Notes: generated by a model not told the origin, from the sequence alone. DNA of 64,000 nucleotides from Nitrospira sp. (GCA_024998625.1 JACOEL010000015.1:1-64000); one strand, 5' to 3'. Counted from the stretch's first letter, positions 6,638 to 54,630 are shown. Numbers and translations: made by a program.

Positions 6638-7387
6638 CTATCGGCCGAAGAGGCCTTTGAGCATCTTGTTCACCTCGCCCGCCGGCGTCTCGCTCTCCTG
6701 ACTCTTGCTCCCGCTGCTGTTCCTGGACGATCGTTTCTCTTTCGCCCGCTCCTGCCCGGTGTTCTTCATCATCTCTTCCATGTTCGGCATGCCGCCCTGC
6801 CCCATCATCGCGCCCATATCGTTCTTCGTCGCGCCGGCGGGAACCTCGAACAACGTGGGATCCTGCTTCTCGATTTTCACGTTGGTCAACTCGCTGGCCA
6901 TACGCATCTTCTTATCCCCGTCCTTCGACAGGAGATCCATTTTGACGGTAACCCCCTCTTTGGTCGTCCAGAAGAAGCCGCCGAACTTCGCTCCGTCGGG
7001 TTTGGTGGCGATAATTTTCGTCTTTGTGGTCTTCAAACCGTTGATGGTCTCTTCGCCGACCTCGGTCTGTTCTTGAATGTCGAACCCGCCCATGTCGGGG
7101 GCATTCGACTGATCCAGCGGCATCTCCATATACATGTCGCCCATCACCTGCCAGATGACCTGTTTGTCCTTGCGGATGATGGTCACGCTGCCCTCCGCTC
7201 CCCCCATCTCCATGCGCTGCTTCGTGGGCGTGTGGTACACGCGGGACTTCATCGTCATGCCGCCCTCGGTTTGCATCGTACTGTCCGCCGAATACTCTAC
7301 CGTCGGCTCCGGCAACGGCGCGGCCGTGACCGTCAGCGGCACAAGGGCCAACGAAAACAGCATGGCAACAGATCGCAACAATGTCAT
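6638..7387 (-). CDS. Exported DUF4412-type protein
   Basis: A 249-residue secreted protein with a signal peptide ending near residue 22 (VTAAPLP). The body looks like the DUF4412/LolA-like beta fold: repeated strands about MEMGGAEGSVTIIRKDKQVIW, then the ETINGLKTTKTKI segment and the FFWTTKEGVTVKMD strand pair, ending with the characteristic TLFEVPAGATK. The C-terminal 60 residues are Met/Gly- and Ser/Lys-rich and probably disordered. CAGGAGG lies well placed before the ATG. It is the first gene of a two-gene unit with the helical exported protein at 5649-6626. LolA-like folds often bind lipids or lipoproteins, but that role is not shown here. Confidence 0.75.
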   Translation of the reverse strand: MTLLRSVAMLFSLALVPLTVTAAPLPEPTVEYSADSTMQTEGGMTMKSRVYHTPTKQRMEMGGAEGSVTIIRKDKQVIWQVMGDMYMEMPLDQSNAPDMGGFDIQEQTEVGEETINGLKTTKTKIIATKPDGAKFGGFFWTTKEGVTVKMDLLSKDGDKKMRMASELTNVKIEKQDPTLFEVPAGATKNDMGAMMGQGGMPNMEEMMKNTGQERAKEKRSSRNSSGSKSQESETPAGEVNKMLKGLFGR

Positions 7388-7679
7388 GGCCTAACCTCCT
7401 GGTGGACCGAGTGACTTGCCTGGCGGGGACAGAGGCTAGCGGGGTTTGAGGGGGGAGTCAATATGGGGAGAGGGCTGGGGCAGAGGAGACTGGGTATATA
7501 TGGCAAGTATGGAAATAATGCGGGGCAAGCAATATGGATAGTACCCGGATTAGAGCAGGCCCCCGATTGATGGATGAAAATATATGAACCCAACACCTGC
7601 ACCTAGTCGATTCTCCGCGAGGGGGATCCTACGTTGGAAGCAGAGGAGCTTGCATGGTCGAAAACGCCGATTGCCTGAC

Positions 7680-9845
7680 TCAGGATGGGCGGATCCGATT
7701 GGGCGATGTCGTACTCGCCGGCGCCATGGTCTTCTTCATTCGTTTAAATATCAACCCAACATACACCATGGAACAGAGATAAACCGTGGACATTGTCAAC
7801 AGAACAAGTATGGAGACATACCAGAGAGGCGGCCTCACCATACAGTCAGCCATCACACACAGGTGCGCTCGGCCCCCCCACGTCCCGGCCGCAGCGCTTA
7901 AAAATATCACGATCCCCCATATGACCCTAGGCCGAAACACTCTTTGGAAATTGCCCCGCGTTTTCAATGACAGTCGAACGTTTCTCTCTTCCGCCTCGGT
8001 GGCGTCAAATGCTTGGTTTGGATGGTCATTCAGTAAAATGAGAATACGACGCCAGGCGACCGATCCAGCCACCGAATTGGCGAGGATCCCCCGACGCAGC
8101 TTCCAAGGTAGCAATCGCTTCATCAACCAGTTTTGCCGCGCAACATATTCGGTCTTCGCCTCCTTCCGATAGACCTCAAACGGCCTGGGACTGCTCCAGA
8201 GCAAAATCCCCGCAAGAAGCGCAACAGCAGATGACAGCGAAAAACCCCAGTACCGCCATCCGATCCAACCGTAACTCAACAGCAATCCTGTGATGACCGA
8301 GGTGATGAGGGGGATCCGGATATAGGCCCAGACCAGTGCCATGTCATACACCCCATCGACTTCGATGAAGTCCTTGGAAACGAATTGTCCCAAATGAGAC
8401 CCGGCACTATGGCATTGGGGCGATGGTGGCTCATCTATGACCTCATGAATCAGGTGGTCGAAGAGCGCTTGATCCTTCCAATATTGCACGTGCGCAACTC
8501 CCGGCACCGAATACCGACGAAACACCACGTCCCGATACGCGACGGGAATGGTCGTGTTAAAGACTTTGCCATAATTGGGGCATTCCTGAGTGTTGTCGAG
8601 GTGATGACCGACGGGATCCTGTTCATCGCAGAGGTTGTAATGGGTGATGCGATGCCGATTGGTATCGTCCAGCCAATTGTCACTCCACGCGTGAGGGAAG
8701 GAATGGTGGCTCAATCCCATATGACGATAGTTGTGGTGCCAAAGGGTGAGAAATTTATCGATAGGCGACCCCAAGGTGATGAAATGCTTGACGTGATCGC
8801 GCCACAGGAGAAGAGGACAGTCATGGTAGAGCAGTGACGCATTCGATTTCGGCATAGTCGCGCCATGGCACTGCTTGAACTGCGCATATCGAGTACCAAG
8901 ACCGGCCCAGTTCTCAGCGGCGCGGGGAAGATTTGGCCGTCGCGGTTCCCTCATCAGCTCGGACAGGAGACCGAGCCAGGATTCTTGGTCGGAATCCTCC
9001 CGCTCAGTATAGCCGGGAAAGGGAAGGCACCCGCTGGTATGTCGATCAGTCCCGTCTCTGATGCTTTCCTTTGCAAAGGCATACACCAGCGCATCGAAGC
9101 TCAAGACCGATCCCAAACTGTGGGCAATGACCGTATAGTTGGGTGGAACATAGTTCTCATCAGCGCTCGTCCGTTCGAAACGGCACCATTGAACATAGTC
9201 ACGCAGATGAATCTCGTCCATCACCCGATGGAATCGACGAACAGCCTGGCCTCGCGTACGTGCATAGTCTCCGTACAAATGGACGTCGCCGATGACGTCC
9301 TGAAAGACGGCCCTAGCCGCTTCTTTGGAATAATAGGTCAAGAGGCCTTTCATCGGCATCAATGTCTGTTCGATCTCACACAGGAGGGGCATCACCCAAT
9401 TAGCGGACCAATTCACGGGTGTAAAGGGAGGTTGCAGTCGTTTAATGAGGGCTGCAGCCCAACGTTCGGGAGGAGAGCCGAAGTCAGTCTGGTGAGTTTG
9501 CAGAAGGTCCGACCATCGCATATCCACGAAACGAAAATTATTTCCTGATTTCTCGGTAGCGCGGGTTCCATCAAACGTTTCTGATTGGTCGACGTTCTCG
9601 GCAGGATCGATGGGAATCCCCTTGAACTCCGACCAGCCATGTCCTCCACCTTTCCGACGCATGGAAAGCGAGGAAAGACTCCCTGGCAGCAGTGCCGCGT
9701 AGGGGACCCCAGGTTTATCCTTCGCACGGGCAGTGGCGAATCGGTTCACCACTTCGACGGTTGTTTCGTTATGCCGCTGCTCGCCGATCCCATGCACGAC
9801 AATGATGTAGTGGCGAGGACAAGATGGACCATTCCCGTCGAACAT
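7680..9845 (-). CDS. Alpha/beta-hydrolase with C-terminal membrane helices
   Basis: A 721-residue protein and the last gene of the seven-gene operon. The N-terminus has the hydrolase oxyanion-type motif HGIGEQ (residues 18-23), and AHSLGS (241-246) gives a nucleophile Ser243 in a G/A-x-S-x-G elbow. This places about 480 residues in a lipase/esterase-like domain with large insertions. From about residue 505 to 700 there are roughly four hydrophobic helices (for example around LITSVITGLLLSYGWIGW, AVALLAGILLW, VIWGIVIFLSAAAGTW and YVSILVLLTMSTVYL). The enzyme is therefore probably anchored in the inner membrane with the catalytic domain in the cytoplasm. The substrate is unknown. AGGAAGGGG lies upstream; the gap to the previous gene is 72 bases. 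Confidence 0.8.
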   Translation of the reverse strand: MFDGNGPSCPRHYIIVVHGIGEQRHNETTVEVVNRFATARAKDKPGVPYAALLPGSLSSLSMRRKGGGHGWSEFKGIPIDPAENVDQSETFDGTRATEKSGNNFRFVDMRWSDLLQTHQTDFGSPPERWAAALIKRLQPPFTPVNWSANWVMPLLCEIEQTLMPMKGLLTYYSKEAARAVFQDVIGDVHLYGDYARTRGQAVRRFHRVMDEIHLRDYVQWCRFERTSADENYVPPNYTVIAHSLGSVLSFDALVYAFAKESIRDGTDRHTSGCLPFPGYTEREDSDQESWLGLLSELMREPRRPNLPRAAENWAGLGTRYAQFKQCHGATMPKSNASLLYHDCPLLLWRDHVKHFITLGSPIDKFLTLWHHNYRHMGLSHHSFPHAWSDNWLDDTNRHRITHYNLCDEQDPVGHHLDNTQECPNYGKVFNTTIPVAYRDVVFRRYSVPGVAHVQYWKDQALFDHLIHEVIDEPPSPQCHSAGSHLGQFVSKDFIEVDGVYDMALVWAYIRIPLITSVITGLLLSYGWIGWRYWGFSLSSAVALLAGILLWSSPRPFEVYRKEAKTEYVARQNWLMKRLLPWKLRRGILANSVAGSVAWRRILILLNDHPNQAFDATEAEERNVRLSLKTRGNFQRVFRPRVIWGIVIFLSAAAGTWGGRAHLCVMADCMVRPPLWYVSILVLLTMSTVYLCSMVYVGLIFKRMKKTMAPASTTSPNRIRPS

Positions 9846-9917
9846 ACCAGAAGCCCCTTCCTATCGTGATGAAGGCCCGAGCGCAGGCTCCTCGTTCACC
9901 GCTCTGCACAAGAATGC

Positions 9918-10367
9918 CTACTTCAGCGCAATCCCGATCCCAATTAGACCTGCAACCTTATAGATTTCCATGACGGCCTGCCAAAAGTTCTTGGCCATCC
10001 CAACGTGAAGCTGGTAATGAGCTCTCTCAATCTTCCGCTGAGCGTCCGGCAACCTTCTCACCCACCTCTCAAACACTAGGGTTTCGACCCATGCCCAAGT
10101 CGGGTATCCCAGTGCGGCAACGCAAGCCCACAAGAGGATCAGCCAGAGGTGATCTTTAGGCCACGGGGAGATTTGGAGCCCACCAACAAGGCCAAACAGT
10201 AAGGGAGCTAAACAGATTGTCACGTGAATGATTGAAGCGGTCACATGCAGATGCATGCTTCCAAAGCGCCAACCGTTTCGCCTGTACCACTGCGGAGTTG
10301 GCTCTACGAGCGAACCCGGCGTTGGATCGTCACTCAGAGGGTCTGGTAAGAGTCCGCTATCGTTCAC
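9918..10367 (-). CDS. Small membrane protein of the hydrolase operon
   Basis: A 149-residue protein with a hydrophilic N-terminus (about 40 residues), two hydrophobic segments (about residues 44-66 and 75-97), an amphipathic basic stretch (ERWVRRLPDAQRKIERAH) and a final hydrophobic segment (VAGLIGIGIAL). I recognise no family. Its start overlaps the end of the upstream lipoprotein hydrolase gene by 11 bases, which implies translational coupling and a shared role in the operon. It may act as a membrane platform for the hydrolases, but nothing in the sequence proves this. Confidence 0.7.
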   Translation of the reverse strand: MNDSGLLPDPLSDDPTPGSLVEPTPQWYRRNGWRFGSMHLHVTASIIHVTICLAPLLFGLVGGLQISPWPKDHLWLILLWACVAALGYPTWAWVETLVFERWVRRLPDAQRKIERAHYQLHVGMAKNFWQAVMEIYKVAGLIGIGIALK

Positions 10368-11376
10368 TGGTTGACTCGAATCTCACTGGGTCTCGCAGAA
10401 ACCGTCTGACTTCCTCGCGGGCCTCTCTCGACGCCTTGCCGGGGTCGCCTGCCGCGTGCCATTCACCGATCAAGGTGCTATGGGCATGCTCCGGCAGCTG
10501 ATCGGACAGAATCACCTGACACCTGGCAAGGTCCGGTACGTTCTCATCGATCCGCTGTCGCTCCGACGGATCACGGGGCGGAATTACCAGACACGTCACG
10601 CGATCAGGAACGCCCTCCTTCGAAAAGGTCTTCCACACCGTCTCCAGCTTCTCCGGTTTCGAAACACAATCTTGCTCAAACCTCACGAAGAAGATCTTTG
10701 CGGAACTGTTTATTGCCTGTTCGATATCGTCCTTGGAGATACCCAGCGACTTTCTGACCTCGTCGTCATTGCGGAAGATCGACAGCGGCAGCGTGGGCTG
10801 AGCGAGGACCACAGCATGGATACTCGAATTGTCGAGCAGCGCTAATGGCAGCGAGCCCGTCAAGCAGTTACCGATGACCCCGATGGGTTGTTGCGGATGC
10901 AATCGCTCAATCTCCCGTGCGACCGCTCGCAGCCACCCCACAATCTTGCTCTCTCCACTCTCCAGCCCCCACCACTCACGGTTGAGCCCAAAGGTAATCA
11001 AGAAGCCATGCCAGGTCGACTGACTATTCCATTCGCCAAACAACAGCGGCACATAGACCGTAAATTCTTTCGACAGCTCACGCGCATAGTCCAACGTCTT
11101 CCCAGATAAACCAGGCAGTTCATGGAGCAACAGGACAGGCGGCTTCGTTCGATCGCCGAGAAAACAGTAGACCGGATGCGCAACCGAATCAGCCTTGAAT
11201 CCATCACCATCATTGTTGAAGCATGTTTCCAACATTCCGACAAACCGCATCTCCTCACCGTGAGGTGCACAGCGCACCAACTCGACCAGGCCGCAAGCCG
11301 ACAGGGAACAGACCAGGCCCAGAGCGAGCACATGCTTGGTGAATCGGCACACCCGACGCATGCGTGCATTCTTCAT
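10357..11376 (-). CDS. Lipoprotein with dienelactone-hydrolase-like fold
   Basis: A 339-residue predicted lipoprotein: signal helix (about 11-24) and lipobox SLSAC with Cys28. The mature part follows the dienelactone hydrolase pattern: strand VLLLHELPGLSG (81-92), then FTVYVPLLFG, then the nucleophile elbow GVIGNCLTG with Cys171 where serine hydrolases have Ser. A histidine near residue 296 (PEHAHSTLIGEW) is a plausible catalytic partner. Known dienelactone hydrolases use a Cys nucleophile and are cytosolic; a lipid-anchored version facing the periplasm is unusual. The gene overlaps the upstream hydrolase gene by four bases (ATGA) and the downstream membrane protein gene by 11. Substrate unknown. 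Confidence 0.78.
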   Translation of the reverse strand: MKNARMRRVCRFTKHVLALGLVCSLSACGLVELVRCAPHGEEMRFVGMLETCFNNDGDGFKADSVAHPVYCFLGDRTKPPVLLLHELPGLSGKTLDYARELSKEFTVYVPLLFGEWNSQSTWHGFLITFGLNREWWGLESGESKIVGWLRAVAREIERLHPQQPIGVIGNCLTGSLPLALLDNSSIHAVVLAQPTLPLSIFRNDDEVRKSLGISKDDIEQAINSSAKIFFVRFEQDCVSKPEKLETVWKTFSKEGVPDRVTCLVIPPRDPSERQRIDENVPDLARCQVILSDQLPEHAHSTLIGEWHAAGDPGKASREAREEVRRFLRDPVRFESTSER

Positions 11377-12305
11377 GGCTTTGGTTTTGGTCTTTCTGCC
11401 GGCCAGTCAGGATTCGGGTGGCGGCTCAGAAACTCGAACACGAACTGCTCGCTCTCCGCCCTCGTCTGATTCTCTGGTGGCGAAGGGGTAGGGTACACCG
11501 GCAAATAGTCACTGTGGCCGATATCACGACCCGGATCCGCCATCCGTGACTCGATCTTGGCCAATACATCCGGAGGACAGTCCTCCGGGCCATACCGACC
11601 CAACGCCCACACGGAACGCTCTCCCGAGAACGGCCACCAGGATTGGGCTACATCGCCTGCCGGATAGGCCAACTGCAAGACCCGATCCTGTTCCGACGCC
11701 AGAACCGCAAGCCGGTCGGCCTTGAGCGCGGCATCGCGATAACTGGTGAGCCCCTCCTTGCCCAACGAATCGTTGTCGATCGCCGCCGCCATCAAACAGA
11801 TGCGATCCAAGATCGGCTTCTTGACCTTGACCTCTCGCACCATACGTTGCGCCGCACGCATCACGACGCGACAGCCGAGGCTGTGACCGACGAACGCCAC
11901 ACGGGCGCTCTCATCCACATTGAGAACGATCCAGGTGAGCAGGTTATCGGCACTATCGTCAGCATCGCGACTTTCCGAGGGATAGCTAGCCGCACCGGCC
12001 CATGAAGTGAACCTGGACATGCCGGCCCATGAGTCGCCAGGCCAGAGGACCGCGAGCATCAGATCCGTCGAGCCCTTCTGTTCCAACCATCCGATGAATC
12101 GCACCAGTTTCTCGCGCCCTTCCGCAAGGCTGTTGTTAAAGCCATGCAGGAACACCGTGAGACGCTGTCCACGAGTCCGCAGGGTAAAGTCTGGCAATCG
12201 ATCATCCCAGCTCTCATCCCGCGGCGCCCCGACGCGGTAGAGATGCCCTGAGGTGACGGCCCCGCCGAACTTTTGGTCACGCAAGCTGAGGATAAAGGCG
12301 TTCAT
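11373..12305 (-). CDS. DUF900-type alpha/beta-hydrolase
   Basis: About 310 residues, resembling the DUF900 group of alpha/beta-hydrolases. HGFNNS (54-59) is the family's oxyanion motif and VGHSLG (139-144) carries the nucleophile Ser142; a RDADDSADNL segment and an LMAAAIDND stretch follow as in DUF900 proteins. There is no signal peptide, so it is likely cytoplasmic. The frame is open 35 codons further upstream, but the ATG at 12305 overlaps the stop of the preceding gene in the form ATGA and begins with a sensible strand (MNAFILSLRD). It is in the middle of the operon and overlaps the next gene by four bases. Substrate unknown. Confidence 0.82.
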   Translation of the reverse strand: MNAFILSLRDQKFGGAVTSGHLYRVGAPRDESWDDRLPDFTLRTRGQRLTVFLHGFNNSLAEGREKLVRFIGWLEQKGSTDLMLAVLWPGDSWAGMSRFTSWAGAASYPSESRDADDSADNLLTWIVLNVDESARVAFVGHSLGCRVVMRAAQRMVREVKVKKPILDRICLMAAAIDNDSLGKEGLTSYRDAALKADRLAVLASEQDRVLQLAYPAGDVAQSWWPFSGERSVWALGRYGPEDCPPDVLAKIESRMADPGRDIGHSDYLPVYPTPSPPENQTRAESEQFVFEFLSRHPNPDWPAERPKPKP

Positions 12306-13087
12306 CGCGCTTTCAACGCCTTCGCGGCTTCCTGTATCGCGGTGGAGAGATCCTTCGCCACCGGCGTCAGAGGAACGGCGGCAAGACCGACGAGGAGACA
12401 CCACCCCCACTCGCCCGATGTCACCATTCCCATGCTCCCACCAACCGAGAATGAAATAGCCAGCGAAACGAAGGTAGCCAGGAACTTTGTCTGGCTAACA
12501 TATTGTGTGTCGGCCAAGGCCAGGGCGGCATCGATGCGGGCGTCGATCATGGTCTCCAGACGAGCCATCGCGGACCGCTGTTCATCGGTCATGGCCGGTT
12601 CCGGAGGATGCTTGGGCTCCTCCTGAGACATGGACTGCGCTGCTTGGGAACGCTGCCGGCGCGCGCTGTCGATCGCCTGCGCCGCAAGGTTCGCAATGTC
12701 CGCCGTGACTCCCAATTCGGTCGCCACTAATGCGATGGTCGACACCTCCATCATCCCAAACCCAATCCGCACCCCCTGCCGCAGCGTTCGAGGCAAGTCG
12801 CCGCTCACACGGCCTACTCGATATTGAGCGCGGAGTAGCTCCATCACGTCACTCCCATAGGCAATTCTCAATGCAGGCAGCAGTGGATCGAGGGTGGCCT
12901 TGTGCGTCGGAAAGAACCGCCGTCCTCCCTCCTTGCCTCCCACCGCAAAGATGCGTTCAAACCCGGCCGAATCAAACCAAGTAAATGGCTTGAAGAACCC
13001 ATCCACAATGCCCTGTGACGCACCACCGAGTGCGCCGATCGCAAGCGCGGCCGTACCTAACGTCGTTGCATCGATCTCCATACTCAT
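12302..13087 (-). CDS. Membrane protein of the hydrolase operon
   Basis: About 261 residues. A glycine/alanine-rich hydrophobic segment lies at the N-terminus (TLGTAALAIGALGGASQGIV), a second hydrophobic segment occurs in the middle (IGFGMMEVSTIALVATELGV), and two more helices near the C-terminus (FLATFVSLAISFSVGGSMGMV, and WCLLVGLAAVPLTPVAK). Between them is a helical, charged region with many Gln/Arg residues. I recognise no family. An ATG two codons later (13081) is an alternative start. It follows the giant lipoprotein gene by 45 bases and overlaps the DUF900 hydrolase start, so it belongs to the same operon. Confidence 0.72.
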   Translation of the reverse strand: MSMEIDATTLGTAALAIGALGGASQGIVDGFFKPFTWFDSAGFERIFAVGGKEGGRRFFPTHKATLDPLLPALRIAYGSDVMELLRAQYRVGRVSGDLPRTLRQGVRIGFGMMEVSTIALVATELGVTADIANLAAQAIDSARRQRSQAAQSMSQEEPKHPPEPAMTDEQRSAMARLETMIDARIDAALALADTQYVSQTKFLATFVSLAISFSVGGSMGMVTSGEWGWCLLVGLAAVPLTPVAKDLSTAIQEAAKALKAR

Positions 13088-13132
13088 ACTCTCTTCAGGT
13101 TGTTCGCCTCTCCTCACTACTTCACCACTGAG

Positions 13133-16100
13133 TTACTTCCCCTGCTCCTGCTGCGGGTCTTTCGGATTGGCCGCGTCGCCGATAAACAGAACCGCCTGCT
13201 CATATCGATCCAACGCCTGCTTGTGGTCCTTCAACATGCCCAGCAACTCCGCGCCCACAACCTTGCGGACTTCACTTGCGGCCTTGGACGACTCAGCCTT
13301 CACGTCCTGTTCAATTCGCGCCGATAATCGCTTCTCCAACTTGGCCAGCGCCTTAAGATCATTGGTGATCGCGAGGCCTCGTTCTTGATCCGAAGCCTTC
13401 TTCAACGGCTCGACGTGCTTATCCCACTGTGCAACTTCCTCTCCCAACGCGGTTTTGAGCGCAGTCATCGCCGCTGGATTGTTCTTCAATTCATCGTGCC
13501 TTTCCCACCCTGCAAGAATCTGGTTATACAGCGCTTTGTCTCCGTCTTTGCCATGCAATTCGGCAAGCCTCGTAGACAACTCGACTGTGTGCGCCTGATA
13601 GGCAGCCTTGTGTTTCCCGAACACCTGCTGTAATGGCGGCAGTTCCGCTTCCTTTTCCGCCGCAGTCTTTTTCGAGTCATCCTTCGTGCCAGACAACTGT
13701 CGCAGCTCATGAGAAAGATCGATCGGCAGCTTGGTCCCCAAACCGAACAGGGCCAGATGCTTGGCCGATTTGACGATATCCTTCGTGTCGCCGAAATACT
13801 GCTTCACGTACCAATTGCCCACGTCGTCTTTAACGAGCGCCTGGTTCGTAAACCCTGCCCCCGAGACCCGCACGCGGTTGATGTTTTGCCAATATTGTTT
13901 GTCCAGCTCAGCCGTCAACGTCCGATCCTGCCTCTCAGACGGATTGAGAATGTCCACCAGTTGGGAGGAAAACGGCAGGCTCCTGATCCCTTGCGAGAGC
14001 AACATGTTGTCCCATGCCAGGTTCGGATCATCCTGCAACGACGTCGATGGGAAACTCGTCCGTAAATAGGCCGACGACGGGCGGAGATAGGTCATTCCTA
14101 CACGATGCTGGTAGGCATTCTCCAACGCCTCGGCCGCCTGTTTGCTCGCCGTTGAATCCTGTCCATACCGCTCAACCGCCTCCATTTCTCGATGGCGCAG
14201 CAACGCGATCACCCGATCCATGACGTCCACAGGACTGTTGTAGTCGCCGTCCTTCAACGGCGGCAATGAAGGCGGCGGCGTCCGCTTCGCCAAGACCGCC
14301 TGCGTATCTTGGTATGCTTTCTTTTTGGCGGCATCTTGTTCGGCGGCCTCTTTGTGTTGCACATGGGAGGCCAACAGCGCATAAATCGTATCGGGTGACA
14401 CGTATGGTGCGTCTGTGGGAGCAGCTTTCAGCACCTCCCCCTTCACGGCGTCGATCACCGTCGCAGCCGTCGCCAATCGAGCTTTGGTGACGGGCAGCTC
14501 CGCGATGACTGCCGCCAACCCTGCCGCCTCCGCGCTCAACTGCTTGGTCTTGTCCTGGACGTCACGGCGCGCCTGCTCCCTCTCCTCCCGGATCTTGTCG
14601 TATTGCGTCACGCGAGCCGCTCGCGCGGCCTCCAATTCATCGAGATGCTTGGTGAACACCGCCAACAACTCGGCTCGATTGCTTGAGGTATGGCCCTGCT
14701 TCCTACGATAGGCCTCAAACCCCGTTTTGCTCTCCGGATCCTTCGCATACGCGATCGCCTGATCAAACAGGGACCGTTCTTCCGGAGTGGGAGTACCATC
14801 CTGCGCCTGCCTGATGGTGGTAAGCTGCTGCTCCAACCCGTCCGGGCCGGTCAGGAAGGCGACGAGATCGGCAGCCTCGCCCAATCCCGCCGCCTTCCAT
14901 CGAGCCTTGATCTGCTCGGCGACTTGCGGCGTCACCAGGTCATGGATGGCTTTCAGCGGACTGAGCTTGGTCCGATAGTCGTTAAGCGCTTGCGTGGCCT
15001 TGTTCACCTCATCGTCGGCCTCGGTCTTGAGAGCCGCCGCGTTCTTGATTTGCCCGTCGATGGCCGCTTTCTTGGCCTTAGCCTCATCGAGTCGTTGCTG
15101 CGCAATGACCTGTTCATAGGCCAGCTCCTTCAACAGGTCGTTCAGGATCTTCCGCGGGTCCGGCTGATAGACCGCGTTCACGGCCTGAATCTCGGCGGGA
15201 ACCCGCTTCTGGCTCTGCTCCCGATAACGATCCCGTTCGCGCAATTCATTCGCCGAAAAGAGAATGGAGTTGCCGACGGCTTGAAGGACACGGACATACC
15301 GTTTCGTCATGGCTTGCGGCGCATGAGATTGTCCGATCACGGAAGTTTTTTCATACCCAGCTATCGCATCATCTCCGAACAACCCGCGCAGAATATTTTT
15401 ACCCCCACCCACAATAAGCCCCTCGGTGCCAGGCGGCGAGGCCAAGCTGTCGTGGTTGGCCAAGAAAAGGAGTTTTTGGGCGAATTCCACTAACCCGTCC
15501 AAGAGCCGCCTTTGATCATCGGATTCCGCACAACGCTGCTGCTGACTCTCAAACGCTACACAAGACTTTGCACGGTTGTGCGAATCAAGGTAATTCTCCG
15601 TTAACGTGTGTAACCCATCGAGCAATCGTCCCCGTCCAAATCCATGGGCCAAATCCCGCTTCACATCCTCCATGGCTTGAACGACCTCATCCTTCTCAGA
15701 ATCCTTCCCAGACCCATTCCCCTCAAAAAAAATGCGATTGAGTCCGAGCCGCACGATTCGTTGGTCATTGACGCGATTGGCCTTTTCGACCAGCGTCTTG
15801 GCCACACTCTTCGGTGGAGCAGCCTGTTTTTCCGCATTGTCGAGGGCCAAGAGAAAGAGCGCCGTGTCCGCCGGTGCACTAGAAAACGCCTGCGTCAGGA
15901 TAGTCTCGAAGTGCTCCTGCTTGTCATTTACGTTCTCCTCTGTCCAGGCAGGCCCTGTCGATCCCTTCTCCGAGATTGTCCCGGAGCTCTTGGATTCTTT
16001 TGTTGCCTTCTCTTCTGTCTCTTTCGATCCACCCTCACAGGTCTGTTTCCACTCTCGAGTCAATACATTCTCCAACACCGAACAAGTGCCGGCGTCGCGG

Positions 16101-17332
16101 AGACGAGACAAGGCCGACGCAATCTGGCGTACGCTGGTCACCTTGACCGCCAACCGAATCACTTTTTTCTCGAGCGCATCGTACCGGCCTGGCTCTTCCC
16201 GCTCCTCCCGCTTTACTCGTTCGATCCGCAGCAGCAAATTCAAGCTTTCTTCCCACAGATCGCGAACCGCTTGTCTCGACTCCCAGTAGGCATCGGCCAA
16301 TTCCTTGGTCCGCTTATTCAGTTGGCGACAGGCCTCGTCGCCTTGGGGGCCGTCCACGCACAATTGCCTGGTTGCCTTATCAAGCTGCGTATGCTGTTCG
16401 CCGAGCAGCTTCCAGACGGCTCGAAACGGCAGCCGCCGGTCATAGAGTTGCTTGTCAGGGTTGTCATAAGACGCTGATCCTTGCCATTCCTGAATAAGGG
16501 CGAGTTCCATGCTCTTCTCCGGTGGTTGGGTTGTCGTCCCCTCTTTAACAACCTTTTTCAACGCATCCATCAATTGGCCGACTTCCCTCTTTGATTTCCC
16601 CTTCCCTCCTTCAGTTGGAACAAGGAAATTTCTGTAGGCGCGCAGCAACGCCTGAAGATCAGGAAGAACCTGGGTCCCTTCCGAGCCTTTCACGCCGGCA
16701 AGAAGATCCTGCTTTAGGCCTTGTTCGATCTCGGCAAAGATTTGTCGATCGCGGGCTTCACTGAACTCAACGATGCCCTGCATTCGACGCAACCGGTCCG
16801 ATACCTCTCGTAACCTCTTGCCATAGGGGGCAAACACCGGTGAGTCCAAATCCTCGTACAGACTCAGGACATCATTCACGTGACGCGCATAGGGGCGCTT
16901 GAAATGTGGTTGACAGGATGGTCGTGGGCCTGTGAAGAATTCTTTAATCCCCTCCCAAGTCTTCCGAAAGATCGATTGGGATGGAACCTCCGGCATATAG
17001 TCCACACCTGCTGGTGGCTGCACATACTCGCCCTGATACCAACGAGTGACGATGTCTCCTTTCAAACACTTTTCAGGTTCTGGAGGCTTGTCATCCGCAA
17101 TAGGCTTGCCGTCCGTATCGGGCCACTCCAAATTGTCGCGCAACTGGATCAACATCGGTTTCGCCGCCGTCGCCAGCGCCACCAGCTGGTGCAGCTGCAC
17201 ATGTTCCTCATTGACCAACGCGCCTTTGTAAACATCCACATCGACGGTCAGGACGGCGCAACCGCTCAAAACCCCACACAGGGCCAGACCGACCGCCCCC
17301 ATACCCCGCCGTCTCATGGCTGCGCGCGTCAC
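13133..17332 (-). CDS. Giant coiled-coil lipoprotein, 1,399 residues
   Basis: A very large predicted lipoprotein. After a basic N-terminus and hydrophobic helix, the lipobox VLSGC gives an acylated Cys25. Just after it come TVDVDVYKGALVNEEHVQLHQL and LATAAKPMLIQLRDN, which look like a conserved N-terminal domain. The remainder is largely alpha-helical and charged. A long coiled coil runs from about residue 730 to 1010 (QRLDEAKAKKAAIDGQIKNA, then the REEREQARRDVQDKTKQLS stretch). A less helical segment around 1090-1200 (VGMTYLRPSSAYLRTSFPST) may be a globular domain. No enzymatic motif is visible. Its start overlaps the stop of the upstream lipoprotein gene (ATGA). It may span the periplasm as a scaffold; that is inference. 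Confidence 0.85.
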   Translation of the reverse strand: MTRAAMRRRGMGAVGLALCGVLSGCAVLTVDVDVYKGALVNEEHVQLHQLVALATAAKPMLIQLRDNLEWPDTDGKPIADDKPPEPEKCLKGDIVTRWYQGEYVQPPAGVDYMPEVPSQSIFRKTWEGIKEFFTGPRPSCQPHFKRPYARHVNDVLSLYEDLDSPVFAPYGKRLREVSDRLRRMQGIVEFSEARDRQIFAEIEQGLKQDLLAGVKGSEGTQVLPDLQALLRAYRNFLVPTEGGKGKSKREVGQLMDALKKVVKEGTTTQPPEKSMELALIQEWQGSASYDNPDKQLYDRRLPFRAVWKLLGEQHTQLDKATRQLCVDGPQGDEACRQLNKRTKELADAYWESRQAVRDLWEESLNLLLRIERVKREEREEPGRYDALEKKVIRLAVKVTSVRQIASALSRLRDAGTCSVLENVLTREWKQTCEGGSKETEEKATKESKSSGTISEKGSTGPAWTEENVNDKQEHFETILTQAFSSAPADTALFLLALDNAEKQAAPPKSVAKTLVEKANRVNDQRIVRLGLNRIFFEGNGSGKDSEKDEVVQAMEDVKRDLAHGFGRGRLLDGLHTLTENYLDSHNRAKSCVAFESQQQRCAESDDQRRLLDGLVEFAQKLLFLANHDSLASPPGTEGLIVGGGKNILRGLFGDDAIAGYEKTSVIGQSHAPQAMTKRYVRVLQAVGNSILFSANELRERDRYREQSQKRVPAEIQAVNAVYQPDPRKILNDLLKELAYEQVIAQQRLDEAKAKKAAIDGQIKNAAALKTEADDEVNKATQALNDYRTKLSPLKAIHDLVTPQVAEQIKARWKAAGLGEAADLVAFLTGPDGLEQQLTTIRQAQDGTPTPEERSLFDQAIAYAKDPESKTGFEAYRRKQGHTSSNRAELLAVFTKHLDELEAARAARVTQYDKIREEREQARRDVQDKTKQLSAEAAGLAAVIAELPVTKARLATAATVIDAVKGEVLKAAPTDAPYVSPDTIYALLASHVQHKEAAEQDAAKKKAYQDTQAVLAKRTPPPSLPPLKDGDYNSPVDVMDRVIALLRHREMEAVERYGQDSTASKQAAEALENAYQHRVGMTYLRPSSAYLRTSFPSTSLQDDPNLAWDNMLLSQGIRSLPFSSQLVDILNPSERQDRTLTAELDKQYWQNINRVRVSGAGFTNQALVKDDVGNWYVKQYFGDTKDIVKSAKHLALFGLGTKLPIDLSHELRQLSGTKDDSKKTAAEKEAELPPLQQVFGKHKAAYQAHTVELSTRLAELHGKDGDKALYNQILAGWERHDELKNNPAAMTALKTALGEEVAQWDKHVEPLKKASDQERGLAITNDLKALAKLEKRLSARIEQDVKAESSKAASEVRKVVGAELLGMLKDHKQALDRYEQAVLFIGDAANPKDPQQEQGK

Positions 17333-17988
17333 AGGCCCCTCCCTTCATTCGCAGGGAACTGCTCCTTCGCCGCTTCCAATTGAGCTTCGACCACCTGCTT
17401 CTCTGCCTTCACGGTGGTCATGGCTTCAAAGAGCAACCGGTTCAAGGTGCTATTGTCCTGATCGGCCTTGGCTTGGACGAAGCCCCCCAACGCTTCGTCC
17501 ATGGCGGCAAAGAACTCCTCCGGATTGGCCCCCATCACGATGACCAGACGATGTTCCTTGGGCACCTCACGAAATCCCTCCGGACCGAATTGCATGAGCC
17601 GGCGTCCGATCTTCAGTTTCGACAGCTGCTCGTTGCCTGCCTTGGTGAAGACGATCTTGCCGTCCGCCTTGTTGATCTCGACCGAACTTCCCAAGGAGTC
17701 GATCAACTCGGCTGGCACCCATCCGGACCCGAACCGCATCCAACTGATGATGCTGGCCTGTCCACGCACTCGGACCCGATACAGGGCGGGCGGAACCTGC
17801 TCCTGCGGATCGAATGATCCAAGGTAATACACCTGCTCAATATCGTGGCCTGGAATGACAGCCCCGACCGCGGCCGTGATCGCGGCGCCCAGGGCGATGG
17901 TCTGAGGAAGGGCGTTACAACCGGTGGTAAGGCTTCCGATCAGCAATGCCATCGCGCAGCAACCATTGAGCAGAACAGATTTCAGCAT
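17329..17988 (-). CDS. Lipoprotein heading the hydrolase operon
   Basis: A 219-residue predicted lipoprotein with lipobox LTTGC and Cys24. A hydrophobic stretch (TIALGAAITAAVGAVIPG) follows closely. The body contains a beta-rich domain (VYYLGSFDPQEQVPPALYRVRV; ASIISWMRFGSGWVPAELI; GKIVFTKAG) and ends in a charged helix (VKAEKQVVEAQLEAAKEQF). I recognise no named family. It is the first gene of the seven-gene unit; its stop overlaps the start of the giant lipoprotein gene by four bases. A candidate promoter lies about 115 bases upstream. Confidence 0.78.
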   Translation of the reverse strand: MLKSVLLNGCCAMALLIGSLTTGCNALPQTIALGAAITAAVGAVIPGHDIEQVYYLGSFDPQEQVPPALYRVRVRGQASIISWMRFGSGWVPAELIDSLGSSVEINKADGKIVFTKAGNEQLSKLKIGRRLMQFGPEGFREVPKEHRLVIVMGANPEEFFAAMDEALGGFVQAKADQDNSTLNRLLFEAMTTVKAEKQVVEAQLEAAKEQFPANEGRGL

Positions 17989-18710
17989 TGCGCACTCTCC
18001 ATCACGTCATTCAAGAAATCCGATGCCATAACAACTTCTGTGAGCACGACTATCGTAGCCTCTGAACAATGACGCTCCATCCACTGTTTTCGGCTGGCAT
18101 CTTATAATCGTACATACTACGTAATTGCAATACGGCCAAATGGCCCTATCAAAAATGAAATACAACCATTTTTACGGGGAATATTAGAAAACTAACTCGC
18201 CCTAGTAGCTCTACTAGAGGCAAGCGCCACTACGTACCAGGAAGGAAGAACCTGAGCCAGAGGTCCGTATCCTCGACGTTGCGCCAAGGGAACCTTATGT
18301 TTGAACAATTACTCCCTTTATCCTCCTGAGCGCCCCACAGAACTACCCCCTAACTGCATCCAAACAGATACTCCCCATCTCATTTGCTGATATTCAGATG
18401 TATCCGACCGTCATATCCCTGTAATTTTCGTCATGCGCCCCACTAGCCGCCGTGATCTCACGCTCGCTCTTCCATCGAACCACCAGGGTAGAAACCTGCC
18501 GTTCCTAGGGTCATGGCGAGCCACATCTACTCCGTAACCATATGAAAATACGTTCATGGAGGACGAATCATCCGACTGGAACTATCCTATTGTGCATGTC
18601 GTGGGAAGGACGTTCGTCACACGCAGAACCGAAGATCCGAACTGGCACTAAGTTTGCTCACTTATCGGGCAAGCGAGCATTCAATGGTCGTCTCACAAAG
18701 GGAGGATCTT
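17989..18710. other. Long intergenic region
   Basis: About 720 bases between the divergent hydrolase operon and a small plus-strand gene. It is visibly more AT-rich than its surroundings, notably at 18100-18200 and 18340-18440. It holds the candidate operon promoter. Frames are short and without ribosome binding sites. I see no RNA gene or repeat that I can support, though the length leaves room for a regulatory RNA. Confidence 0.4.
18102..18130 (-). promoter_or_regulatory. Candidate promoter of the hydrolase operon
   Basis: On the minus strand TTGCAA (18125-18130) and TTATAA (18102-18107) are 17 bases apart, a sigma70-like layout. Transcription would start about 105 bases upstream of the first gene (start codon at 17988). 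The match to consensus is partial. Confidence 0.35.
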
Positions 18711-19513: not shown

Positions 19514-20761
19514 TCACACATCTGTCTTACCGATTCCACCAACACGAATCCTCCTCCCAAACCAGGCACTTCCCCCTGCTAAGACAACCATCACTCCGCC
19601 GATCCCGATGATGCTGGCGACGGATCCGAACGATTCCGCCACCCAGCCGAACGCACTCATGCCGAGCATGGATGTGGCGGTGGCACTCGCCGTATAGACC
19701 GCCATCACGCGTCCGACCATTCCCGCTGGAGCCACTTCTTGAATGATGCTCCAGGCGATGGGCGTCCATGTGCCGAGGCCCATGCCGATGCAGCCCACAA
19801 GCACGGCAGCCAGGCGCAAGTCGTTCGTCCACGTCAACCCCACCAGGGCCAATCCGGCGAGGGCGCAGGAGAGGGTGATCACCGCGAGCCGCCTCGGCAG
19901 ATCCCACGCGCTCATCCGGATCAACCCGACCGAAGTGAGCAGCAACCCCACACCGAGCCAGGACCAGAGATACCCGACCTCAACCGGTCCGAGCCCGAGC
20001 AAATGGCGCCCGAACACAGGGAACAGGGTCGAGAACGCGCCGCTGCCGAACGTATAGACCGACGCGAGGACAATCAGAATCAGTACGGTGCGATGAGTCA
20101 GAAACGCGTAGCGGGTGCCTTCGATCAAGTGCCGGATAAATGGTCTCCAGCCCTCTCCATCGGCCGTTGTAGTCTCCGTCACTCGCAGCTGGATCGGCAG
20201 CAGGCATGCCGCTGAGGCGAAGTAGGTCACGGCATTCAAACAGAGCACATCTTGTGAACCGGCAAACGCAATCCCGAGTCCGCTGACCGCCGGTCCGATG
20301 ATGATCCCGAGGCTGGTCGTGCTCTGAAGGAGCGCATTCGCCGCGGTGAATTGAGGGCGGGTGACCATGAAGGGAACGGCAGATGAGAGTGTGGGCACAA
20401 ACACTGCCGTGGCGACGCCATACAGAAAAGTAAGGAGGTAGAGCGACCCGACGGTGAAATTCTCCACCGACACCAGGCAGGGTATAAGTCCGATGAGCAC
20501 ACCTCTGGCGACATCGCTACAGATGAGGATCGTTTTCTTGGGAAACCGATCGACAATCACTCCGATGAACGGCCCCAACAGAATCGGCGGAAGCGTCTGC
20601 AGAAGCCCGATCACGGTCGTCTTGAGCGGCGAGCCGGTGACCGCATAGACGAACCAGAGCAGCGCCAACTTGCTGATGCCTTCAGCAACCTGGGACAATA
20701 CCTGACTCCACCACATGAGACTGAAGTCGCGTGTAAGCAGCCACCGAGGGGCTTCGGCCAT
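19514..20761 (-). CDS. MFS efflux transporter (MFS_3/EntS-like)
   Basis: About 415 residues with the 12-helix pattern of the major facilitator superfamily. Early in the protein are LTRDFSLMWWSQVLSQVAEG and, after helix 2, the loop PFIGVIVDRFPKKTIL, the equivalent of MFS motif A. This arrangement is typical of the EntS/MFS_3 branch of drug and siderophore exporters. An ATG at 20761 is preferred over the upstream in-frame GTG/ATG codons because it starts right before the conserved WLLTRDFSLMWW; no Shine-Dalgarno is visible, but a TATACT sequence lies six bases upstream, suggesting a leaderless transcript. It lies 160 bases downstream of a paralogue in the same orientation. Substrate unknown. 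Confidence 0.85.
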   Translation of the reverse strand: MAEAPRWLLTRDFSLMWWSQVLSQVAEGISKLALLWFVYAVTGSPLKTTVIGLLQTLPPILLGPFIGVIVDRFPKKTILICSDVARGVLIGLIPCLVSVENFTVGSLYLLTFLYGVATAVFVPTLSSAVPFMVTRPQFTAANALLQSTTSLGIIIGPAVSGLGIAFAGSQDVLCLNAVTYFASAACLLPIQLRVTETTTADGEGWRPFIRHLIEGTRYAFLTHRTVLILIVLASVYTFGSGAFSTLFPVFGRHLLGLGPVEVGYLWSWLGVGLLLTSVGLIRMSAWDLPRRLAVITLSCALAGLALVGLTWTNDLRLAAVLVGCIGMGLGTWTPIAWSIIQEVAPAGMVGRVMAVYTASATATSMLGMSAFGWVAESFGSVASIIGIGGVMVVLAGGSAWFGRRIRVGGIGKTDV

Positions 20762-20923
20762 GCCGCCAGTATAAACGTTTGCCGCGGGAGTGGAATCAGT
20801 AGGACTGGGTGGCGCTGAGAAATGTCCCACGCATGGTCCTTCCGCTCACGAAGGCTCGTTCAGGCTGCCTCATCGCGTCTATTTGGTGCCGCAAGTCAGG
20901 TGGTCGCCAGCAGGCTGTGAGGA

Positions 20924-22189
20924 TCATCGCGCATGGGCAAGAGGAATGGGGCGGGCTCTGCGCGCGCATGACACCGCCACGGCGGCGGTGAGCAACAGCA
21001 CAAGCCCCAATCCCACCAGGCTCGCGGCAGGACCGATCGCGTCGGCCACCCAACCGAAGCCCGTCATCCCCGCCATGGCCGAGGCCATGGCGCCCACACT
21101 AAACGTCGTGAGGACGCGGCCGATTAAATGTTCCGGGGTCACTTCCTGGAGCACCGCCCACACGATAGGATTGAGCACCGCCGTACTGCCGCCCACAATG
21201 ATGACGATCGCCGCCGCGACCAGAGGCGTCTCCAGCAGACTCAAACTACAGACCGCAAGGCCGCCGATGGTCATGCCCCTGACGACGATACGCAAGCGCC
21301 CCTGCATGTCACTCTGTTTTTTCCACGCCAGCCAGGTCGAGGCCGCGAGCATCCCGACGCCGAGCGCAGACCACAACCAGCCCAATTGCACGGGCCCGAC
21401 TTGGAGAAACTCTTTGGCATAGACCGGCAAGATGAAGACGAAGGCGCTCACGCCTAAATTGTAGAGCGATGAAATGATCACCAACGTCAAGACCATGGGT
21501 TGCTGCCCGAACACGAAACGAAAGCCGACTTTCAGTTCGTCCCACACGGAGGTGGAATTTTCTCTCGGTGCGATAGGAGCAAGGCTGAAGCGAATCGGCA
21601 TCAGGCACAGGGCCGAAACGAGGAAGGTGACGGAATTGATGAACAACACATTCTCCGCGTTGATCAGCGCGATCATCACCCCGCTGATCGCCGGCCCCAG
21701 CAACAGGCCGATATTGTTCGTGCCTTGAATGAGCGCATTCGCCGACATTAGCTCAGACGGCCGAACCAATAACGGCACGGCCGACACCAGCGCGGGACCG
21801 AATACGGTGGAAACCACGGACGTGAGAAAAATCAGTCCATAGAGTCCCTCGATCGACAGCATGTCCATGGCATACAGCGTCGGGATGAGACAGGTAAGCA
21901 CTGCACGAAACAGATCGACCCAGATCATCACGGCCTTTTTAGGCAACCGGTCTAGGTACACCCCGATCAGCGGACCGAACAAGAGAGGGGGAATGGTCTG
22001 GAGAAGTCCGACCATGGTCATCTTCATGACCGAACCGGTCAGTTCATACACAAACCACAGGAGCGCCACCTTGTTTAACCCCTCGCCGATCTGAGAAGTA
22101 GTCTGCCCCCGCCACAGCAGTCCGAAATCTCTGGTTTGAATGAGACGCCACCCGCGACTTGGAACGGAGTCTAATTGATCCTCTGACAT
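20924..22189 (-). CDS. MFS efflux transporter, paralogue of the next gene
   Basis: About 421 residues, again MFS_3/EntS-like with 12 hydrophobic segments. It shares many segments with the neighbouring transporter: TRDFGLLWRGQTTSQIGEGL, ALLWFVYELTGS, and the motif A loop GPLIGVYLDRLPKKAV. The pair is clearly a tandem duplication that has diverged. The chosen start (22189, MSEDQLDS) is the ATG closest to the conserved first helix; the open frame continues 16 codons upstream. A GGGAGAA sequence 9 bases upstream is a weak ribosome binding site. Substrate unknown. Confidence 0.85.
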   Translation of the reverse strand: MSEDQLDSVPSRGWRLIQTRDFGLLWRGQTTSQIGEGLNKVALLWFVYELTGSVMKMTMVGLLQTIPPLLFGPLIGVYLDRLPKKAVMIWVDLFRAVLTCLIPTLYAMDMLSIEGLYGLIFLTSVVSTVFGPALVSAVPLLVRPSELMSANALIQGTNNIGLLLGPAISGVMIALINAENVLFINSVTFLVSALCLMPIRFSLAPIAPRENSTSVWDELKVGFRFVFGQQPMVLTLVIISSLYNLGVSAFVFILPVYAKEFLQVGPVQLGWLWSALGVGMLAASTWLAWKKQSDMQGRLRIVVRGMTIGGLAVCSLSLLETPLVAAAIVIIVGGSTAVLNPIVWAVLQEVTPEHLIGRVLTTFSVGAMASAMAGMTGFGWVADAIGPAASLVGLGLVLLLTAAVAVSCARRARPIPLAHAR

Positions 22190-22521
22190 GATCGGGTTTC
22201 TCCCGGGATAACCCACGAACTGACGCGCTATGGCCACAGCCCCAACTGCCTTAATCCTACTCTTCGACCAACGTCGTTCTGATCTATGCTACTCGTTCCT
22301 ACCAGCCAGCCAGGCTAGGAAAAGCCCTTGGGGCAGATCGACAAATGCCCGGCAGGGTCCTGAAATTTGTCCAGTTAGCAGACTTCGAGGCATCATCTAC
22401 ATACGTGCGTCGAACGAAGGGAGTCCCCGAGCAGTCCCCCCTTCTCCTCCCCCTCAAGCCTTCCCTCATTCCTTCCGATACAGGAGCAGGAAACCCTTTT
22501 CTTTATTTCCCTGGAGGTCGC

Positions 22522-52809: not shown

Positions 52810-53483
52810 GCGCACAGAGGCAAGCCGAGGAGGCATTCCAACAGGAGTACCAGAAAGCCATCGAGCGCATCCGCACGATGCCGGATGGCGCCGTCGGCTG
52901 GGTGCTCCGGTTCCTGCAAACGGACCTAGAGGCCCTGACGCCGACCGAATGGACGTTGGTGGCGTTTGAAGTCGCGGCCTTTGTCGATGAGACGGGAGAC
53001 CGGTACGGCGGAATGGTGGCCCCGGAAAGCGGCTGGAGCGTGGAAGGGGTGCCCAACGCGAAGAACTATCAGACAATACCCAGTCGCAAAGAAGCACAGG
53101 ACATTCAGGCCACAGTCCTAGAGCAGTTAGAACTCTACTGGCACGAAGGATACATCGCCTTCACCTTTCCGCAGATGACGCTGGTCGTGGTCTCGCCAGG
53201 CAGCTTCTCCGACGAGACCGGGACAATCTTCGTGAGCGCGAAACGCAAGGCCAAGGAGTTTGAATACCGCTTTGTTCATCTCTTGGCCCAGTCCGGGGAC
53301 TACATTCGGCGCTGTCCGGAATGCGCCAAGATCTATTTAGCGATCCGGCGCGACCAGCTATACTGCCAGCCACGCTGTCAAAACCGAGTTGCGGCGAGAA
53401 AATGGCGAGAAAGCCGGAAGACCGACCAAAAGACAGAGCGACGAAAGGAGGACCGCCATGGCAAGAAAAGAGGGAAAGGATAG
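52806..53483 (+). CDS. CGNR-like zinc-finger protein
   Basis: A 225-residue protein. The N-terminal 150 residues are alpha/beta with no known motif. The C-terminal part has a zinc-binding signature reminiscent of CGNR-type fingers: RCPECAKIYLAIRRDQLYC followed by QPRCQNRVAARKWRE, giving four Cys as C-x2-C and C-x3-C. The end is Lys/Arg/Glu-rich. Proteins with CGNR-like ends are usually transcription regulators. The stop lies 26 bases inside the integrase gene, so the two are co-translated; it may regulate integrase expression. Confidence 0.7.
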   Translation: MSAQRQAEEAFQQEYQKAIERIRTMPDGAVGWVLRFLQTDLEALTPTEWTLVAFEVAAFVDETGDRYGGMVAPESGWSVEGVPNAKNYQTIPSRKEAQDIQATVLEQLELYWHEGYIAFTFPQMTLVVVSPGSFSDETGTIFVSAKRKAKEFEYRFVHLLAQSGDYIRRCPECAKIYLAIRRDQLYCQPRCQNRVAARKWRESRKTDQKTERRKEDRHGKKRGKG

Positions 53484-54630
53484 AGGCATCACCCAGCGGA
53501 AGGGCCGCGAGGGCTGGTGGGTGCGCGTCTATGAAGAGGGACGCCAGACGTGGCACAAGTGCGACACAAAAAGCCAAGCACGCACGCTGTATGGCAAGTT
53601 AAAAGCCGACGCACGAGAGGGAAAACTCTTTCCCAAACCGAAGAAGACAAAATCAATCCTGCTGAAAGATTACTTTGTGACGTGGCTCAAAAACCAACCC
53701 GCACGCGGCAAGAAACTTACGACGATCAAGACGTACGAGTCGCGATTACGAAAACATGCCCTCCCCGCCTTCGGAACGTCTCAACTCTCTGCAATCTCAC
53801 GTCCCCGCATCAAAGCATGGGCCGCCGGGCTGCTCGAAAAGGGTTTGGATTTCGATACGGCGCTGAATGCACTCTTGACGCTCAGCGCGGTCTTAACCGA
53901 AGCCGTCGAGGACGGACTGATTACCCATAACCCTGCCCTTCGTTCCGGCAAACTGTTGAAACGGCCGGCGACCATCGAGGAATCCGAACTCGCGATCTTC
54001 ACCCCCGAGGAGGAAGGCCTCTTACTGGAAACCATCCGACGCGAACGCCCGCTGTTTTACCCGATGGCCCTGACCTTCTTTCGCACCGGCCTACGAGCGG
54101 GAGAGGTGCTGGGACTCCATCGCGGTGACCTGAACTTTCACAGCCGATCAATCTACGTTCAACGGAACTGGTCACGGGGGATCTTGGGTACACCCAAGAA
54201 CGGGAAGGCCCGCCGGGTGGACATGTCTCAGGGGCTAGCAAAGGCTCTTACGGAATGGATCGAGCTACAGGATCTGGAGGCGGCAGCCGCTGGACAGGCA
54301 GCGCCTGAAATCCTCTTTCCAGGCAACCTTGGCGGAACCAGGCGGGAGCCAAGTTATATGGCCGAGAATTGGCTGCGGTACAAACTCTGGTTTCCGATGG
54401 TGGCGAGGGCAGGACTGCGACGACTGGATATGCATAGTGTCCGACATACCTATGCAAGCCGACTCATCGCGAATGGCGAGAACTTAAAATACGTCCAAGA
54501 CCAACTGGGCCATGCCTCGATTACCATCACCTGTGACACATACGGACATCTTATACCGGGCGGTAACAGGCAAGCGGTGGACAAGTTAGATCAGGAACGG
54601 ATCAAGCCGGATCATAGTCATGCTTCTTGA
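53458..54630 (+). CDS. Tyrosine recombinase (integrase) of the element
   Basis: A 390-residue tyrosine recombinase with an AP2-like arm domain (residues 1-60, ITQRKGREGWWVRVYEEGRQ), a SAM-like core-binding domain (about 70-170) and the catalytic domain. The catalytic residues are visible: R213 (TGLRAGEVLGL), H326 and R329 (HSVRH), H352 (LGHAS) and the nucleophile Y362 (DTYGHL). It is the right length for a phage or island integrase. Upstream in-frame codons exist, but a perfect AGGAGG site precedes the ATG at 53458. It lies beside the right attachment site, as expected. Confidence 0.95.
   Translation: MARKEGKDRGITQRKGREGWWVRVYEEGRQTWHKCDTKSQARTLYGKLKADAREGKLFPKPKKTKSILLKDYFVTWLKNQPARGKKLTTIKTYESRLRKHALPAFGTSQLSAISRPRIKAWAAGLLEKGLDFDTALNALLTLSAVLTEAVEDGLITHNPALRSGKLLKRPATIEESELAIFTPEEEGLLLETIRRERPLFYPMALTFFRTGLRAGEVLGLHRGDLNFHSRSIYVQRNWSRGILGTPKNGKARRVDMSQGLAKALTEWIELQDLEAAAAGQAAPEILFPGNLGGTRREPSYMAENWLRYKLWFPMVARAGLRRLDMHSVRHTYASRLIANGENLKYVQDQLGHASITITCDTYGHLIPGGNRQAVDKLDQERIKPDHSHAS

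Follow-up and report, generated by a model that had tools for sequence, protein, structure and literature searches.

Does a tightly packed block of seven genes in the genome of a Nitrospira bacterium encode one conserved envelope pathway, as has been proposed from its sequence? Genetic manipulation of Nitrospira, which are central nitrifiers, is difficult, and to our knowledge little is known about their envelope biology or their responses to phages and rivals. The block, composed of minus-strand open reading frames g1-g7, is located in a 64,000-nucleotide stretch of Nitrospira sp. DNA (GCA_024998625.1, JACOEL010000015.1:1-64000), which is referred to here as the window. Comparisons of sequences indicate that the seven genes are one of several interchangeable cassettes, which combine hydrolases with putative lipid-anchored proteins behind a common promoter-like element (Table 1). 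The original prediction overlooked both the shared element and the swapping of cassettes. The finding gains interest as a set of cassettes and as the g1-g2 family, and loses interest as a single conserved seven-gene pathway.

Table 1. Features of the window and contents of related loci. Coordinates are window positions unless preceded by a locus name.
Feature	Coordinates	Strand	Description
g1	17329..17988	-	219-aa lipoprotein; predicted beta domain and long C-terminal helix
g2	13133..17332	-	1,399-aa lipoprotein; variable helical middle between conserved N-terminal strand and C-terminal core
g3	12302..13117	-	271 aa, helix-rich; membrane association possible
g4	11373..12305	-	310 aa; alpha/beta hydrolase of the DUF900 type, no signal peptide
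g5	10357..11376	-	339-aa lipoprotein; DLH-like hydrolase, Cys nucleophile candidate
g6	9918..10367	-	149-aa small membrane protein; two hydrophobic segments
g7	7680..9845	-	721-aa Ser hydrolase (HGIG, AHSLG); C-terminal membrane helices
Exchangeable block	7472..18348		10.9 kb; congeners have about 85 bp instead at the same site
Promoter-like element	18101..18171	-	upstream of g1; also heads cassettes of unrelated content
Element, upstream block			AATGGTTGTATTTC
Element, core	18116-18148		TAGGGCCATTTGGCCGTATTGCAATTACGTAGT
Element, -35-like	18125-18130		TTGCAA; followed by 18-bp spacer
Element, -10-like	18101-18106		TATAAG
Extra shared upstream sequence	18115-18255		shared with L031, L034 and L110; includes palindrome CTAGTAGAGCTACTAG and a second, TACGTAGT
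DUF4412-type gene	6638-7387		borders the swap site
Two tandem MFS transporters	19514-22237		landmark of the swap site, which they border in many congeners
Phage-type integrase gene	53389-54630		PF00589, 8.5e-22
MFS-flanked slot, window			A cassette (g1-g7)
MFS-flanked slot, L031 and L034			B cassette with patatin lipoprotein
MFS-flanked slot, L110			1,026-aa patatin/DUF3376 protein
MFS-flanked slot, L108			g7 alone, behind the shared element
MFS-flanked slot, L149			Tle1-like phospholipase (PF09994, 7e-73) and papain/hydrolase fusion
MFS-flanked slot, L152			460-aa protein and papain/hydrolase fusion as in L149
Other-locus cassette, L150			three small lipoproteins and patatin lipoprotein
Other-locus cassette, L151			818-aa lipoprotein and lipoprotein-like alpha/beta hydrolase
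Other-locus cassette, L153	L153:3795-9660		several lipoproteins and two enzymes of the cell wall rather than of lipids: a peptidoglycan amidase that has a binding domain (Amidase_2, 3e-17) and an L,D-transpeptidase-type protein (YkuD, 8e-17)
Other-locus cassette, L154			one unknown lipoprotein
Second-site loci L032, L033, L035, L068			adjacent to genes of Pup ligase and the proteasome

The coordinates of all seven open reading frames were confirmed, and they agree with the four overlaps and gaps of at most 72 bases that had been described. The pairs g1/g2, g3/g4 (ATGA), and g4/g5 overlap by 4 bp and g5/g6 by 11 bp, whereas g2 and g3 are separated by 15 bp and g6 and g7 by 72 bp. The start of g4 is likely to be the ATG at 12305, rather than the GTG at 12410, because the orthologues keep the ATGA overlap and the GHSLG motif. 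The block is beyond chance: its gene order is kept in other genomes, and the pairwise dN/dS of 0.08–0.37 across all seven genes indicates purifying selection. Lipoboxes are present in three proteins (Cys24 of g1, LSGC of g2, and LSAC of g5), not in two as originally counted. Two 19-residue segments with a Kyte-Doolittle mean above 1.6 are found in g6, in agreement with its description as a small membrane protein, and two more are at the C-terminus of g7. No 19-residue segment of g3 exceeds this threshold, and its description as a multi-helix membrane protein is therefore weak.

The assignment of g4 to DUF900-type serine hydrolases is borne out by the Pfam match (PF05990, 1.1e-11, 45.1 bits against a cut-off of 20.5), the GHSLG nucleophile elbow, and residues S142, D207, and H264, which are invariant even when the Sinorhizobium homologue is included. 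For g5, proposed to be a lipoprotein with a DLH-like cysteine hydrolase domain, the lipobox stands, and the candidate catalytic residues C171, D236, and H299 are invariant among orthologues; however, the match to DLH (PF01738, 0.019, 15.0 bits) is below the cut-off of 21. No Pfam hydrolase family matches g7, proposed to be a serine hydrolase with C-terminal helices, but the protein contains a conserved HGIG...AHSLG pattern. Its S243 and several aspartates and histidines, which are candidate catalytic residues, are invariant among orthologues. The sequences fit the proposed distribution of hydrolases to three places, with g4 predicted in the cytoplasm, g7 tethered to the membrane, and g5 on a lipid anchor. 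Because of their fold family and conserved catalytic residues, g4 (together with g3), g5, and g7 most likely hydrolyse esters of envelope lipids. Despite this likeness to the DUF900 and DLH families, the g3 partner and the g1-g2 setting are absent from the descriptions of these families that were found.

The loci closest to that of the window belong to Nitrospira MAGs. The full gene order is confined to the genus of the window, where 4 of 29 genomes keep all seven genes collinear and with uninterrupted frames (L018, L019, L028, and that of the window) and three more show decay (G004, G018, and G007). In L029 g6 is broken, in L017 g7 is only a remnant, and in L030 g1-g2 are broken, g7 is reduced to remnants, and g6 is missing. 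Among the seven genes, g2 has the lowest identity (53–69%) and g3 is among those with the highest (82–89%). A search of 61 relatives detected g3 in seven, every one of them in the genus of the window. The co-linear unit is real, but the proposal that it represents a conserved system holds only for its parts: beyond the genus the g1-g2 and g3-g4 pairs persist as neighbours in distant genomes, from which the full seven-gene set is absent. One ancient seven-gene system was rejected, because among those 61 relatives g3 is restricted to the genus and distant genomes keep parts only. The unit in the window is a composite of the two older pairs.

A plasmid of Sinorhizobium fredii carries adjacent homologues of g3 (1e-11) and g4 (1e-22), and a second such pair is present in another proteobacterial genome (L131); a tblastn search of plasmids with the Nitrospira query detected no relatives of g3. 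On the S. fredii plasmid (L124) the pair is surrounded by genes for a di-haem cytochrome c peroxidase, a peptidoglycan-binding protein, and a papain/hydrolase fusion. Since this fusion has homologues in the Nitrospira loci L149 and L152 (1e-66), the Sinorhizobium locus and the Nitrospira swap site share one gene pool. Relatives of g7 on Caballeronia megaplasmids are surrounded by genes unrelated to the cassette, and these loci were discarded.

The proteins g1 and g2 constitute a family of lipoproteins without named relatives that extends over three phyla, Nitrospirota, Nitrospinota, and Pseudomonadota. Neither has a relative in Pfam, NCBIfam, or the PDB, and none of 24 members of the g1 family matches a Pfam family, while Cys24 is invariant in 24 of 24 aligned homologues. 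The searches yielded only a Calx-beta insert in one g2 homologue and weak coiled-coil matches at chance level. The conserved N-terminal strand of g2, VDVDVYKG, is of the VDVDVYKGPL type across the family, and the C-terminal core, W-x2-IN-x-V...G-x-G...KDD-x-GNW-x2-K in g2, has the family form KD-x2-GNW-x2-K. In the 40 loci with a g2 core that were examined, a few of which duplicate a genome already included, g1 is directly upstream of g2 except in two truncated loci, L067 (insertion sequences) and L071 (contig start). The long type A of g2 has approximately 800–1450 residues and the short type B 430–560, with some longer. The gene is split into several frames in L030 and L026; the latter, a Nitrospina homologue in three frames (L026:3903-9815), is most likely the one scanned homologue with the Calx-beta domain (3.3e-33). 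The pair occurs in 7 of 77 Nitrospinota genomes. In gammaproteobacteria 2 of 369 matches have convincing E-values, and a wider sample gave 5 of 398, with one common to both. No relatives of g1 or g2 were detected in plasmids (tblastn, Nitrospira query), and viral contigs yielded no relative of the core of g2. At a second chromosomal site, short (B') or long (A) g1-g2 pairs of different Nitrospira adjoin Pup-ligase and proteasome genes.

The AlphaFold model of g1 has low confidence (pLDDT 64) and contains a beta domain with a long helix. It had been suggested that g2 is a scaffold spanning the periplasm; the model of a g2 homologue, also of low confidence (pLDDT 62), is mainly helical and does not bear this idea out. 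Its beta parts are limited to the conserved strand near the N-terminus and to three strands in the C-terminal core. Foldseek comparison of the two poor models with the PDB gave nothing below E 0.16, and no fold was assigned.

Beside g1-g2, other hydrolases recur in the position of g3-g7. A 738-aa patatin lipoprotein adjoins the pair in L031, L034, and L036, with a relative in L067; a 623-aa patatin does so in L065, and in L069 the patatin is interrupted by a transposase. Patatins also adjoin the pair in genomes G227/G151 and G015/G019/G022/G189, and in Nitrospina L026 its neighbour is a protein of 305 residues that resembles esterases. The only patatin detected in G725, a Nitrospinota genome, has 933 residues, is immediately upstream of g1, and is homologous to the patatin beside g1-g2 in other loci (3e-19). 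Many loci carry g1-g2 alone, and the link to lipases is therefore recurrent but not obligatory. Since most Nitrospinota and proteobacterial loci have no lipase neighbour, g1-g2 may have a function of their own.

The block is located between MFS transporter genes and a DUF4412-type gene, at a site that is free of cassettes in three congeners. In blastn comparison with the window, the empty site of L111 matches up to position 7471 and again from 18349; L112 and L113 have a similar gap at the same site. The flanks are thus constant, whereas the block is present, absent, or replaced in close relatives. No direct repeats were found at the cassette edges. At a third site, next to a conserved gene for a 116-aa protein, L150 and L151 hold different cassettes headed by the element. 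The label "lipid" is too narrow for all cassettes, because one (J) contains peptidoglycan enzymes and another (K) only an unknown lipoprotein. A literature search found no published description of such hydrolase-lipoprotein cassettes.

The element of approximately 70 bp that precedes g1 heads nine further cassettes, those in the MFS-flanked slot and four at other loci. A pattern scan of 121 genomes detected it in 15, all from the genus of the window, with one or two copies each and 17 in total, whereas a control pattern read in reverse had no matches in the 121 genomes. The genome of the window has a single copy. Every copy points into its cassette in the reading direction of the genes, and 15 of 18 aligned copies contain TTG[CT]NN-N17/18-TA[CT]AA, which resembles a -35/-10 pair and lies downstream of two invariant blocks. 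An old flank that was merely inherited would not account for this distribution, because the element is missing from the empty swap sites and occurs at more than one place in the chromosome. The element is probably a dedicated promoter that includes a site for an activator or an operator, as suggested by its conservation rather than by a generic sigma-70 scan, which found no promoter in the region; the rule of that scan does not capture TTGCAA and TATAAG at a spacing of 18 bp. It is improbable that the element is instead a recombination site, such as an attachment site or transposon end. It does mark one edge of the swapped blocks; however, it is missing from empty sites, occurs once per cassette, and heads cassettes without an integrase, and both its constant orientation into the genes and the -10-like TA[CT]AA at a distance of 17–18 bp speak for a promoter. 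A structured RNA was also considered and rejected (consensus fold of -1.73 kcal/mol, no Rfam match). The two palindromes in the extra upstream sequence, CTAGTAGAGCTACTAG and TACGTAGT, are possible binding sites of a dimeric regulator.

The explanation that we prefer, with about even confidence, is that the unit is one allele of polymorphic, promoter-linked envelope hydrolase-lipoprotein cassettes that hydrolyse lipid esters and have a role in conflict. As the sequences show, it is an accessory cassette, exchanged horizontally at a chromosomal swap site, and one of about ten known alternatives, whose menu includes lipases, esterases, and sometimes peptidases or cell-wall hydrolases, together with envelope lipoproteins. 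The conserved core, g1-g2, is most likely an envelope-anchored complex, as its strict linkage suggests, and the recurrence of lipase neighbours indicates that it may hold, localise, or restrain the partner hydrolase. Since the element is shared, one common signal would switch on the expression of the cassettes. The polymorphic site and the variability of g2 suggest conflict, that is defence against phages or rivals, which appears somewhat more probable than routine lipid metabolism; this moderate preference is due to the polymorphism, patchiness, and decay of the cassettes and to an enzyme menu common to antibacterial and antiphage effectors. More tentatively, the cassettes could form a polymorphic genus-wide system with at most one or two cassettes per genome and one signal-regulated promoter, in which g1-g2 would be adaptors or inhibitors of lipases and the signal might be, for example, phage adsorption or envelope attack.

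Housekeeping or stress-induced remodelling of envelope lipids, with the three hydrolases acting sequentially on a lipid, lipoprotein, or glycolipid in different compartments and g1-g2 as a structural scaffold, as originally proposed, is unlikely. The tight operon holds three hydrolases with different predicted locations, and g1 and g7 are under strong purifying selection, as such a pathway would have it; however, the set is patchy (only seven of the 29 genomes from the genus have g3) and decays in G004, G018, and G007, unrelated enzymes replace the cassette at the same site, and g7 can occur alone. A lipoprotein organising hydrolases has a counterpart in the outer-membrane scaffolds NlpI and LbcA, of which NlpI is a lipoprotein scaffold of hydrolases (PMC7049810). 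No sequence relation of g1 or g2 to these scaffolds was found, the cassette hydrolases resemble esterases and lipases, and the scaffold role of g1-g2 is putative. The wide differences in contents and the composition from separately conserved pairs could also be produced by a site that gathers unrelated genes, with g1-g2 and the hydrolases co-transcribed without a functional link. This is unlikely, because the combination of hydrolase and lipoprotein recurs under one element at several loci, and g1-g2 has independent patatin and esterase neighbours across lineages.

Distinctly improbable is an effector-immunity module like type VI Tle/Tli, in which the hydrolases would be toxins that reach rival cells and the lipoproteins would protect the producer. 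The T6SS Tle1-5/Tli pairs resemble the cassettes in placing phospholipase-type hydrolases beside lipoproteins (Tli3 is an outer-membrane lipoprotein; PMC9860674), and the menu includes a Tle1-like catalytic domain in the sister cassette L149 (PF09994, 7e-73), patatins, a cysteine-protease fusion, and Amidase_2, with accompanying lipoproteins that once occur three in a row. By contrast, the cassettes have no VgrG, PAAR, Hcp, or adaptor, and no T6SS genes are among the genes read in the window and sister cassettes; g1-g2 are frequently without a lipase, and neither matches a known immunity family. Several cassette hydrolases are themselves lipoproteins (g5, B_pat, and H_579), and their lipoboxes therefore suggest that they act in the envelope of the producer itself. 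Variable defence islands that include patatin effectors, such as CapV-type CBASS, are likewise optional blocks at fixed sites with exchangeable contents; however, the cassettes contain no cyclase, sensor, or PADLOC component, and their parts are exported lipoproteins. A known anti-phage system was rejected, as PADLOC gave no match for g1-g7 and weak matches only in other cassettes. No named system came up for the seven-gene unit, which works like cassettes of a lipase with a lipoprotein, yet belongs to no named family.

The promoter-like element provides a handle by which cassettes can be located throughout the genus, and the partner enzymes of g1-g2 could be tested in Escherichia coli. If the lipoproteins control lipases, they would represent a new family of regulators of bacterial phospholipases.

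Elsewhere in the window, the segment 48000-54700 includes genes for proteins of 724, 196, and 237 residues without a Pfam match. Its GC content falls to 0.44–0.48 at 48–52 kb, beside the phage-type integrase gene, and the segment is probably an integrated element.
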